DNA of 40,357 bases. Source: an uncultured Bacteroidota bacterium (lineage in GTDB: Bacteria; Bacteroidota; Bacteroidia; Bacteroidales; CG2-30-32-10). Shown here one piece after another: positions 9,290-40,250 of this stretch. The translations under genes were made by a program, and so were the position numbers. The notes beneath the pieces are model-generated. The model was not told the DNA's origin. It ran no database searches and was given only the letters and a program-made list of their open reading frames with translations. Numbering within the stretch: position 1 is the first letter of the stretch; each line of letters begins with the position of its first letter. The stretch spans positions 1-40,357 of the forward strand of contig CAINEZ010000266.1 in assembly GCA_903847905.1 (NCBI GenBank). The letters run 5' to 3'.

Positions 9290-9362
<73 letters not shown>

Positions 9363-13410: not shown

Positions 13411-14586
13411 TTACATACATGATATAATAACTTCACAAGCATTTTTTATTTCATCATCCGAAATGATTAGCGGGGGCGCAATACGCATACAGTTTGGAGC
13501 AAACATGAACCAGTCAACTATAACTCCTTTGTCAATACATTTATGAATTATTTTCATATTTATTTTTTCATTTTCAAATTCAATGGCAATTAAAAGCCCT
13601 TTGCTCCTGATTGATTTTATAGACGGATGTTTTAAATACTTGTGAAATAGTTTTTCTTTTTTCTTGACCTGTTCAACTAACTTTTCTTTTTGTATCACTT
13701 CAATGTTTGCTATAGCTGCAGCGCAGGAAACAGGATGACCTCCGAAAGTTGTAATGTGACCTAAAACAGGATTATTTGTAAGACAATGCATAATTTTTTT
13801 TGATGAAATAAAAGCGCCCAAAGGCATACCACCGCCAAAGCCTTTAGCGAGAGTTATAATATCAGGAACAATACCATAATTTTCAAAACCAAACATTTTC
13901 CCTGTTCTGCCTAATCCTGTCTGCACTTCGTCAAGAATAAGCAAAGCGCTGTTATCACTGCATTTACAACGTAAATCTTTCATAAATTGAACATCAGGAA
14001 TAATTACTCCAGCTTCTCCCTGGATTGTTTCTGCTATCACGCAGGCGGTTTTTTTTGAAATATATTTTAGATCATCCTGGTTATTAAATTCAATAAAACG
14101 GACATCGGGCAGCAAAGGACGGAAAGCTTGCTTATAATATTCATTACCCATTACGCTAAGCGAACCATGAGTGCTTCCGTGGTATGCGTTTTTAAAAGCG
14201 ATGATTTCGCTGCGTCCTGTGTATTTTTTAGCAAGTTTTAAAGCGCCTTCTGTCGCTTCGGTTCCCGAGTTTACAAAATAGGTGCAGTTAAGTGAAGAAG
14301 GTAAAATTTTAGAAAGAATTTTTGCTAATATCACTTGCGGTGACTGAATATATTCACCATAAACCATGAGGTGCATATATTTTTCTATTTGTTCTTTTAT
14401 AGCGTTTACAACAGCAGGATGGCAATGCCCGGTGTTGCTTACTGAAATACCTGAAATAAGATCAATATATGAATTTCCTTTAACATCATATAAATAAATT
14501 CCCTCAGCTCTTTCTATTTCCAGGGCAAGAGGTTTTTCGCTTGTTTGCGCAACATGTTGAAAAAAAAGCTGTCTGTGTGTGAGCAT
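13411..14586 (-). CDS. Class III PLP-dependent aminotransferase (acetylornithine-type)
   Basis: Predicted 391-aa cytoplasmic enzyme that transfers an amino group from a terminal amine (ornithine-, GABA- or diamine-like) to a 2-oxoacid. Landmarks in order: GISVSNTGHCHPAV (N-terminal), YFVNSGTEATEGALKLAKKY with the Gly-Thr phosphate contact, YHGSTHGSLSVMG, LLILDEVQTGLGRTG with the PLP-binding Asp, and ITLAKGFGGGMPLGAF with the Schiff-base lysine. The frame is open to a TTG at 14607, but the ATG at 14586 (MLTHRQLFFQH) is preferred. It sits upstream of the guanine-deaminase-like gene. No arginine-biosynthesis genes are nearby, so the precise substrate is uncertain. Confidence 0.9.
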   Translation of the reverse strand: MLTHRQLFFQHVAQTSEKPLALEIERAEGIYLYDVKGNSYIDLISGISVSNTGHCHPAVVNAIKEQIEKYMHLMVYGEYIQSPQVILAKILSKILPSSLNCTYFVNSGTEATEGALKLAKKYTGRSEIIAFKNAYHGSTHGSLSVMGNEYYKQAFRPLLPDVRFIEFNNQDDLKYISKKTACVIAETIQGEAGVIIPDVQFMKDLRCKCSDNSALLILDEVQTGLGRTGKMFGFENYGIVPDIITLAKGFGGGMPLGAFISSKKIMHCLTNNPVLGHITTFGGHPVSCAAAIANIEVIQKEKLVEQVKKKEKLFHKYLKHPSIKSIRSKGLLIAIEFENEKINMKIIHKCIDKGVIVDWFMFAPNCMRIAPPLIISDDEIKNACEVIISCM

Positions 14587-14672
14587 GGATAATAAATTTC
14601 TATACAATGATAGTAAATTTTTTTTAAAATTATGCTTTCGAGGAAATTCAAGATCGAATGCAATTATTTTTT

Positions 14673-14879
14673 CAACCCCTGCCTACCGGCGAGGCAGGCA
14701 CGTTGGGGTTGTCTTTAATTTGTTATTTTTATTTCCTCCAATTTTATTGGAGGTTATTCATATTTAATCACTTCGTGATTATTTCATTTTTTAAAATAAG
14801 TCCGAAGGACTTTAATGTGAGTAACACTGCACAAAGTGCAGTGACAAAAAACAGTATAAAAACAACCCGATATGGGTTG
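14673..14879. repeat. Array of six small hairpins with different stems
   Basis: In order: CAACCCC/GGGGTTG (14673-14711), interrupted by a 20-base palindrome at 14680-14699; CCTCCAAT/ATTGGAGG (14735-14753, loop TTT); TAATCAC/GTGATTA (14765-14781, loop TTC); AAGTCC/GGACTT (14798-14812, loop GAA); CACTGCAC/GTGCAGTG (14825-14843, loop AAA); CAACCC/GGGTTG (14863-14879, loop GATAT). Starts are about 30 bases apart. The first and last stems share CAACCC. None is followed by a U-tract, so they are not ordinary terminators. No gene lies in this gap. Confidence 0.85.
14680..14700. repeat. Copy of the CCTGCCT-type mini-palindrome (nested)
   Basis: TGCCTACCGG..AGGCAGG matches the copy inside recR and sits within the outer CAACCCC/GGGGTTG stem. 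Removing it leaves CAACCCC joined to ACGTTGGGGTTG, which is almost a perfect 20-base palindrome, consistent with later insertion. Confidence 0.75.
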
Positions 14880-14951
14880 AATATTATCAATATTTTTAAT
14901 GTATTTGCCTTTATGATAAGTTAAGATATAAAACATTTTTTAAAATAATCG

Positions 14952-14985: not shown

Positions 14986-15735
14986 ATGAGGATTATAAAA
15001 ATTATATTTTTTATAATATTAGTTGCATTTTTTTTAATGCCCACTAAATCTTTTTCGCAAACTATAAATTTAGCAGATTACAATTCATGGTCTGCAGGTG
15101 TTAAGTTTGGAATACTTCCTTTTTACGGTGATGTAAGGCAAGCTAAATATTCCTCAGATAATAAGTATAAAAAAACCAATACCGGTTTTACTTTTGAAGG
15201 AATAAAATATTTTAACCAGGTATTTGGAACAAGGGCTGATTTTTTATTTGGAGGGCTTTCCGGTTCATCACCCAACCTGAATTTACATTTTCAGTCGAAG
15301 ATAAAAGAATTTACATTGTCAGGAATTGTAAATTTAAATAACCTTATTTCTTTTTATCCTAAAAAGGAAAAAGTTCTTAATACATATATATATGCAGGGG
15401 TTGGATTAGTAAATTTTAGATCAAAACTTTATTCTTATGACGAGAACTTATTTATTGGCGGTTTTGGATGTGATAGTTTGGGGGTTTCCAAAACAAAAAG
15501 CAGAACAGAAATGGTTTTCCCATTTGGGATTGGAATAAAATATAAAGCAGACCCAAAAGTTGATATTGGATTGGAAATGACTCTTCATCTAACAAATACA
15601 GACAAATTAGACGCCTTGATGGTAAACAAATCGTATATGGACAGATATAGCTATGCCGCAATAAGTATCACATATAAATTTGGAAATAAAAAAGAATTTG
15701 TAGATTGGGTAAATCCTGCACAGGATACTGAGTAA
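14986..15735 (+). CDS. Outer-membrane beta-barrel protein, function unknown
   Basis: Predicted 249-aa exported protein. Residues 1-24 are a signal peptide (cleavage near SFSQT). The mature part is a run of alternating beta-strands (SAGVKFGILPFYGDVRQ, TGFTFEGIKYF, NTYIYAGVGLVNFRS, VFPFGIGIKYKADPKVDIGL) ending in YSYAAISITYKFG, typical of an eight-stranded or similar outer-membrane barrel. It resembles opacity-type or THC0290-type proteins of Bacteroidota, but I do not recognise a named family. It is probably an envelope structural or adhesin-like protein; the gene is monocistronic. Confidence 0.75.
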   Translation: MRIIKIIFFIILVAFFLMPTKSFSQTINLADYNSWSAGVKFGILPFYGDVRQAKYSSDNKYKKTNTGFTFEGIKYFNQVFGTRADFLFGGLSGSSPNLNLHFQSKIKEFTLSGIVNLNNLISFYPKKEKVLNTYIYAGVGLVNFRSKLYSYDENLFIGGFGCDSLGVSKTKSRTEMVFPFGIGIKYKADPKVDIGLEMTLHLTNTDKLDALMVNKSYMDRYSYAAISITYKFGNKKEFVDWVNPAQDTE

Positions 15736-18885: not shown

Positions 18886-19527
18886 TTACTTTACTAATGT
18901 ATTTTCGTAAGGAGTTCTGTTTAGGATGGATCTTCCGAGAGTAATTTCATCAGTATATTCCAGATCGTCGCCAATGGCAATACCGCGGGCAATAGTAGTA
19001 ATATTTATATCGAATTCCTGCCTGTCCGGTAGGCAGGCTTTAAGCCTTTTGTAAATATAAAAATTTGTAGTATCGCCTTCCATGGTAGCGCTAAGAGCCA
19101 TGACAACCTCTTTTACCTTTCCTTTTGCAATTTTGCTTACAAGCGATTCAATGTGGAGATCGCTGGGACCTATACCATCCATAGGGGATATGATACCTCC
19201 GAGAATATGATAAATGCCTTTATATTGATTTGTGTTTTCTATTGCCATTACATCACGTACATCTTCCACAACACACACAAGGCTATGATCGCGTTGAGGA
19301 CTACTACAAATAAGGCAGATTTCAGAGTCGGAAATATTATGGCATTGCTTGCAGTAATTAACTTCCCTGCGAAGTTTGATAATGGATTCCCCCAATGCAT
19401 CTGTATTTGTAGTAGATTGTTTAAGCAAATGCAAAACCAACCTTAATGCGGTTTTCCTGCCTATGCCCGGAAGTTTTGACAATTCATTAACTGCATTTTC
19501 TAAAAGTTTTGAAGGGAAATTGTACAC
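18886..19527 (-). CDS. recR: Recombination mediator RecR, with a seven-residue insertion
   Basis: Predicted 213-aa RecR, which with RecO and RecF loads RecA on gapped DNA. A helix-hairpin-helix lies at residues 17-30 ([15 protein letters not shown]), a four-cysteine zinc finger at Cys59, Cys62, Cys71 and Cys74, and a Toprim domain at about 83-190 with VVEDVRD and ALSATMEGD. The C-terminal Walker-B-like [17 protein letters not shown] is intact. Family members are usually near 200 aa; the excess includes residues 164-170 (ACLPDRQ), encoded by a 21-base palindrome of a dispersed family, inserted between FYIYKRLK and [12 protein letters not shown]. The start is GTG at 19527, giving the canonical [12 protein letters not shown]. 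The gene is monocistronic and converges on the surface-protein gene. Confidence 0.95.
19018..19038 (-). repeat. Mini-palindrome inserted in recR
   Basis: Arms CCTGCCT and AGGCAGG (7 bp, perfect; 19017-19037) surround GTCCGGT. It encodes ACLPDRQ in frame, where other RecR proteins run straight from the KRLK-type helix to the ITTIARG strand. Its match to 14680-14700 is close. Confidence 0.85.
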
Positions 19528-40178: not shown

Positions 40179-40250
40179 AACACTTAGACACTAAATAAAC
40201 TGAGCTTCACTATGAAATTTCTTAGTGCCTGTCGGCAGGCAGGTTAGTGG
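40179..40250. mobile_element. CCACTAAGGCACTAAG-type inverted-repeat element, interrupted
   Basis: The left end ACACTTAGACACTAA (40180-40194) pairs imperfectly (12 of 15) with the right end once the inserted palindrome is removed (TTAGTGCC joined to TTAGTGG). Between them are CTTCACTATGAAA-type sequences. Related to the element at 19651-19736. Non-coding. Confidence 0.55.
40227..40244. repeat. Mini-palindrome nested in the CACTAAG element
   Basis: GCCTGTCGGCAGGCAGG matches the CCTGCCT family (complement CCTGCCTGCCGACAGGC). It splits CTTAGTGCC from TTAGTGG, so it entered an existing repeat. The apparent insertion is about 14 bases, shorter than the 21 in genes. Confidence 0.75.

Follow-up and report, generated by a model that had tools for sequence, protein, structure and literature searches.

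A hairpin array in a Bacteroidales genome is probably a gene-less inverted dimer of REP-like units linked to a clade of Y1 (HUH) transposases

Repetitive extragenic palindromes (REPs), bacterial interspersed mosaic elements (BIMEs), REP doublets forming hairpins (REPINs) and REPtrons, with the REP-associated tyrosine transposase (TnpA_REP, or RAYT), are known from Pseudomonas, E. coli and Stenotrophomonas. They are dispersed short hairpins that form inverted dimers of both polarities and flank a low-copy HUH-Y1 transposase gene, with gene-less copies elsewhere. The GTAG and CGTC palindromic repeats are likewise dispersed and form head-to-head and tail-to-tail dimers, and CGTC repeats occur in Bacteroidetes among other phyla (PMC3733652). 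In a 2018 survey, TnpA_Y1 transposases of subclass 1.2 were described as being without REPs and generally without terminal IS200-type structures (PMC6006769). Here we analyzed a 40,357-nt stretch of DNA from an uncultured Bacteroidales bacterium (assembly GCA_903847905.1, contig CAINEZ010000266.1; hereafter the window), in which an array of six hairpins lies between two divergent genes. We found that this array is most probably a gene-less, REPIN-like inverted dimer of three-hairpin, REP-type units belonging to a clade of Y1 (HUH) transposases. What we observed directly is the architecture of the units, their covariation, strand asymmetry and dispersal, the presence and absence of the array at syntenic loci, and the clade-specific inverted flanking of transposase genes.

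The original prediction, made from the sequence by itself, had described six different hairpins at about 30-base intervals, each with a perfect stem and a 3-5-base loop, and had proposed a search for the same ordered set elsewhere and a covariance analysis of the stems. All six hairpins were verified (positions in Table 1). The centre-to-centre spacing is ~30 nt with the exception of hairpins 1 and 2, which are ~52 nt apart, and perfect 6-8 bp stems with 3-5 nt loops were found in five of the six. Hairpin 1 is not a simple short-loop hairpin but carries a 21-nt dispersed palindrome inside its loop. In the 378-nt intergenic region, we counted 5 hairpins having a stem of 6 bp or more and a loop of 3-5 nt; 50 simulated sequences had 0-2. 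Comparable clusters were found four times in 220 kb of the same genome and never in simulated sequences. Folding of positions 14663-14892 gave z-scores of -8.2 (DNA) and -7.0 (RNA), and none of 200 shuffles was equally stable. This confirmed that the hairpins are genuine and well above chance expectation.

A single unit is present twice in the array, as mirror images, in the order H6-H5-H4/H4-H5-H6. The generic unit consists of H4 (6-7 bp, GAA loop), a linker of 11-12 nt (TAATRTGAATAA), H5 (8 bp), ~20 nt, and H6 (CAACCC..GGGTTG). Except for the first and the last, the stems had initially been taken as unrelated. That view does not hold, as the minus-strand reading of hairpins 3-2-1 matches hairpins 4-5-6 on the plus strand in layout and linker. 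When the flanks of the 21-mer in H6' are rejoined, the hairpin reads CAACCC-ACGTTG-GGGTTG. The two linkers of the outward dimer are complementary and pair together in the predicted DNA fold, which would give a REPIN-like structure. The mirror layout of two units, the 21-mer in hairpin 1 and, as described below, the link to a transposase all go beyond the first description of the locus.

Table 1 Features of the hairpin array and its flanking genes (positions in the window).
Feature	Position	Strand	Sequence or evidence
Whole element, inverted unit pair	14663-14892		87% identical copy at C494, absence in G002; ends +/- ~10 nt
Left unit	14673-14781	-	R1 match 14734-14780 (minus), 67 bits; architecture by inspection
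H6' (hairpin 1)	14673-14711	-	CAACCC..GGGTTG with nested 21-mer in loop; sequence
Nested second dispersed palindrome	14678-14698	+	CCTGCCTACCGGCGAGGCAGG; 118 genomic places, <=3 mismatches
H5'-H6' spacer	14712-14734	-	23 nt
H5' (hairpin 2)	14735-14753	-	CCTCCAAT-aaa-ATTGGAGG (unit strand)
Left linker	14754-14764	-	AATATGAATAA (minus strand)
H4' (hairpin 3)	14765-14781	-	TAATCAC-gaa-GTGATTA (unit strand)
Right unit	14798-14887	+	R1 match 14798-14844 (plus), 67.5 bits
H4 (hairpin 4)	14798-14812	+	AAGTCC-gaa-GGACTT
Right linker	14813-14824	+	TAATGTGAGTAA
H5 (hairpin 5)	14825-14843	+	CACTGCAC-aaa-GTGCAGTG
H5-H6 spacer	14844-14862	+	19 nt
H6 (hairpin 6)	14863-14879	+	CAACCC-gatat-GGGTTG; third hairpin at similar distance in 63/94 units
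Tag of right unit		+	AATATTAT
Aminotransferase-like gene, outside element	13411-14586	-	80% identical to G002 orthologue, same neighbour
Porin-like open reading frame, outside element	14986-15735	+	G002 orthologue, 59% identity

We then looked for the ordered set of hairpins elsewhere. A second copy, 87% identical and with unrelated flanking genes, was found in the same genome (G000:C494:2429-2672). Its H5 reads CACTGTAC-gaa-GTACAGTG, a compensatory change relative to the stem in the window. Arrays with the same layout and other stems were found at contigs C471, C67, C657 and C17 of this genome as well as in other genomes. The copies differ in polarity, being either outward, as in the window, or inward (H4-H5-H6/H6-H5-H4, with H4 outside and H6 central), and inverted doublets were seen in the window and at C494, C471, C657 and G034. 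Because a DNA search with the whole array among relatives gave short matches only, we built a covariance model of H4-linker-H5 (R1) from a seed of nine units, none of them from a transposase locus. R1 was run on genomes that are mostly metagenome assemblies, and its E-values are rough. It gave hits in 41 of the 99 genomes of the order, including 16 places in the source genome and at least 60 each in G039 and G040. In G040 (contig C37), units also form head-to-tail arrays with a period of ~67 nt.

A genome from another genus of the same family (G002) has the same divergent gene pair with no array, and the gap between the two genes is 117 nt compared with 399 in the window. This indicates that the array arrived or left as a block. 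The exact insertion point at this locus is unreadable because the flanks are too diverged.

To characterize the stems, we aligned 95 distinct units. In these, 97.8% of the pair cells were standard and double changes occurred at all 14 pairs. Double changes filled 380 cells, whereas shuffles gave 101 +/- 12 and slid controls no more than 88, so that the stems covary strongly. With this covariation and the further copies of the array, the outcome that would have spoken against the original prediction (stems that do not covary, in a unique region) was not seen. Since this alignment had been fitted to the structure, we added a fixed-geometry test in which H4 and the linker alone select the site and the next 19 nt are then read as 8-3-8. 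At least five of eight Watson-Crick pairs were found at 54 of 89 sites, where chance would give roughly 3-5% (binomial, 25-28% per pair). In 63 of 94 units, H5 is followed by a third hairpin (median distance, 22 nt), while the null expectation is 3.6 of about 96. The structure is conserved while the stem sequence is not. The letters ATA[AG] are conserved 5' of H5 and nothing is conserved 5' of H4; on comparing the units, we saw no conserved tetranucleotide outside them that could serve for cleavage or as a guide.

The two strands of the unit were found to differ. In the fixed-geometry set, the unit strand has 24 G-T pairs and 5 A-C mismatches (p = 5e-4). H5 wobbles are not scored by the filter used for this count, and the p-value is indicative, as related units are not independent. 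On the same strand, the loop is GAA in 27 of 54 cases for H5 and 29 of 54 for H4. This asymmetry is unlike what a symmetric double-stranded cruciform would give and fits a single-stranded substrate of the unit strand, either DNA or RNA.

The units were found to be linked to Y1 transposases. The source genome has four Y1_Tnp (PF01797) genes, and one of them, on contig C222, lies between two inverted units whose H6 sides point toward the gene; from 16 matches over 4.56 Mb, only 0.016 neighbouring units would be expected by chance for all four genes. The lone gene-less unit on C17 aligns over its full length with the right unit of C222, with paired changes in H4 and H5, so that gene-less and transposase-flanking copies in one genome are directly related. 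Among the genomes of the order, units were present in 38 of 68 with Y1 genes and in 3 of 31 without (Fisher p = 8e-6). A tree of 99 Y1 proteins contained one clade (34 rows, support 100/99) in which 27 of 34 rows had a unit within 350 nt of the gene; in the remaining rows the count was 5 of 65 (p = 5e-13), and eight IS200-like proteins outside the clade had no linked unit.

Relatives in named genomes showed the same pattern, with a unit within 350 nt at 48 of 79 loci and at 35 of 38 among the closest. The nearest upstream unit was on the plus strand in 30 of 39 cases and the nearest downstream unit on the minus strand in 28 of 35, the latter mostly 46-61 nt from the stop. Among the hosts are Algoriphagus, Belliella, Chryseobacterium, Spirosoma and members of the Verrucomicrobiota (for example Prosthecobacter and Brevifollis), whose hairpin flanks we identified by visual inspection. 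The full locus is laid out as H4-H5-H6-[tnpA, ~148 aa]-H6'-H5'-H4'. Complete loci such as L182 have extra outward units beyond the element, giving an H4/H4 junction as in the window; no Y1 gene lies in or adjoins the window array itself. Close relatives of the protein are nearly absent from plasmid and phage collections, where we found two plasmid records at 37-42% and a single weak match in phages. At one locus (L127), the H5 hairpin (ATCGGTgcaACCGATggcatata) is tandemly amplified in many copies downstream of the transposase.

The linked protein is ~148 aa long, with invariant HUH histidines and tyrosine. A scan of 102 proteins and two alignments gave the motifs DHLH/DHIH, WQ and YVKKQQEHH. 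The protein scored 61.8 bits with the IS200/IS605 model NF033573 and 25 bits with the REP-associated model NF047646 (cut-off 80). A sequence search against solved structures gave no match, while a Foldseek search with the protein model matched IS608 TnpA (2vic, 1e-8), ISDra2 and E. coli TnpA_REP (4er8, 1.4e-6). By its Y---Q--HH signature, the protein appears to be of the TnpA_Y1 subclass 1.2 type, an assignment made by motif. A PADLOC match to the defence family CARF_RelE (E = 0.009) was judged to be chance. Other Y---Q--HH genes have two-hairpin flanks, for example GTCCC-gtta-GGGAC with AAATATTGGTAG; L035, L036, L107, L110, L118, L151 and similar loci have 5-6 bp stems, GTA/GTTA loops and the AAATATTGGTAG linker. 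Hairpin density near these genes was 8/kb at 50-100 nt, compared with 0.3-0.7/kb far off. These two-hairpin flanks probably represent a second type of REP for this protein group.

Compared with the known systems, the locus shows both likenesses and differences. Like REPs and REPINs, the units are dispersed intergenic palindromes that form inverted doublets and flank tnpA in inverted orientation. They differ in being a three-hairpin string with a conserved linker, in stems that vary widely in sequence while keeping their shape, and in a linked protein nearer to IS200 transposases than to the REP-associated family model. The protein resembles TnpA_Y1 subclass 1.2 in its Y---Q--HH and WQ motifs, its length, its low copy number and its occurrence in Bacteroidetes (PMC6006769); that subclass was published without REPs, whereas here inverted hairpin units flank most genes of one clade. 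IS200/IS605 elements (IS608, ISDra2) share the Y1 transposase fold and hairpin ends, but at the present loci the two ends mirror each other instead of forming distinct left and right ends, the copies are diverged and few, and the window array is gene-less. The GTAG and CGTC repeats are single hairpins with those tags, whereas the units described here have another tag and a three-hairpin layout.

The transposase could act on the units as follows. When the region is single-stranded, as in a lagging-strand template, the strand bearing the GAA loops would fold into hairpins, and the enzyme would recognize their shape, the loop and the conserved linker. Its tyrosine would then nick beside the hairpins, and the freed unit or unit pair would be joined into another single-stranded site. 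Fold recognition of hairpins in single-stranded DNA and cutting beside them is suggested by analogy with IS608 and TnpA_REP (PMC8266576). A possible extension, which we put forward tentatively, is that the enzyme reads the order, spacing and shape of the three hairpins instead of their sequence, so that stems may drift through paired changes without loss of the unit's mobility.

Several points weigh against the array being a unit pair of this transposase clade. The unit lacks the GT[AG]G foot that is canonical for REPs, and we therefore did not file it as a canonical REP, although it would be REP-like in its working. G039 is rich in units and has no close relative of the clade transposase, and G068 holds many units with zero Pfam Y1 family members; in such genomes the enzyme may have been lost or another enzyme may be acting. 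The arrays at C657 and G034 lie inside terminal inverted repeats (TIRs) resembling those of other transposons, and some copies may have moved as passengers. Template-switch correction, besides selection, can also maintain perfect palindromes. We infer that the units are bound, cut and moved by this enzyme, and likewise that it acts on DNA and not on RNA.

We also considered other explanations. The array could be a structured RNA (cis-regulatory or a small RNA), one of the options originally raised, with the six-hairpin fold as the product and the transposase link secondary. The strong covariation, the G-U-compatible wobbles on one strand and the RNA fold (z = -7) would suit this. However, copies lie beside unrelated genes in opposite orientations, the window array is upstream of both its divergent neighbours, the order of units is permuted between inward and outward dimers, and the transposase is flanked on both sides in a clade-specific way. 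Rfam scans gave nothing above the gathering threshold at the array, with mir-308 and tsr24 as sub-threshold chance matches, so no family supports a free-standing structured RNA. An RNA role is unlikely, and we keep it as a rival. The option of a recombination array or a nursery of palindromes agrees with units that are dispersed, paired in inverted orientation and found flanking a single-strand transposase.

It is very unlikely that the array is a miniature inverted-repeat transposable element (MITE) whose hairpins are passengers and whose movement depends on an ordinary double-strand (DDE) transposase. The arrays at G000:C657 (L043) and G034:C76 (L008) are indeed bounded by TIR-like repeats (GTTAGAGGTTGTTTAAAT and GAGGCTGTCCCAAAAGT, respectively), as if captured by a MITE, but these repeats differ from array to array, the window array and the C494 copy have none, and inverted units lie at a fixed distance around Y1 genes. 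A bidirectional terminator or insulator between the two genes is highly improbable, in line with the initial view that the pattern is not that of a terminator. Two terminator-like sites were found against a shuffled mean of 0.1, yet between divergent genes one would not expect a transcript to end, the T run is missing at four of the six hairpins, and the conserved linkers, H5 covariation and transposase linkage would be left unexplained. A CRISPR-like array of direct repeats, which had also been discounted at the outset, was rejected, as no family of near-identical direct repeats with unique spacers was detected. Finally, chance palindromes, for which only the AT-rich setting speaks, have a negligible probability and are refuted by the null simulations, the second copy and the covariation.

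If the enzyme does read the hairpins by shape, as tentatively put forward above, the unit would represent a shape-read mobile repeat across Bacteroidota that reaches Verrucomicrobiota and other phyla. The reading of the array as a unit pair of this transposase clade would give a concrete identity to hairpin arrays found repeatedly between genes in many Bacteroidota, and a likely substrate to a transposase group described without one in the open-licence PubMed Central literature. Free stem sequence combined with kept pairing and layout would offer a natural test of shape-reading by a single-strand nuclease, and the cultured hosts Algoriphagus, Belliella, Chryseobacterium, Gaoshiqia and Brevifollis make the system testable.

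The 21-nt palindrome nested in H6' belongs to a second family (CCTGCCTRCCGGCRAGGCAGG), found at 118 places in the source genome with up to 3 mismatches, while a reversed-pattern control gave 0. In two related arrays, L040 (C67) and L007 (C471), comparison revealed the 21-mer as a clean insertion in the linker with no target-site duplication (TTTAA/TATTAATAA). Besides the nested copy, the window contains copies at 19017-19037 and about 40226-40241. The former is located inside a recR-like gene, where it adds seven extra in-frame codons (..ACLPDRQ..). The window also contains a tRNA gene at 9290-9362, identified with Rfam.
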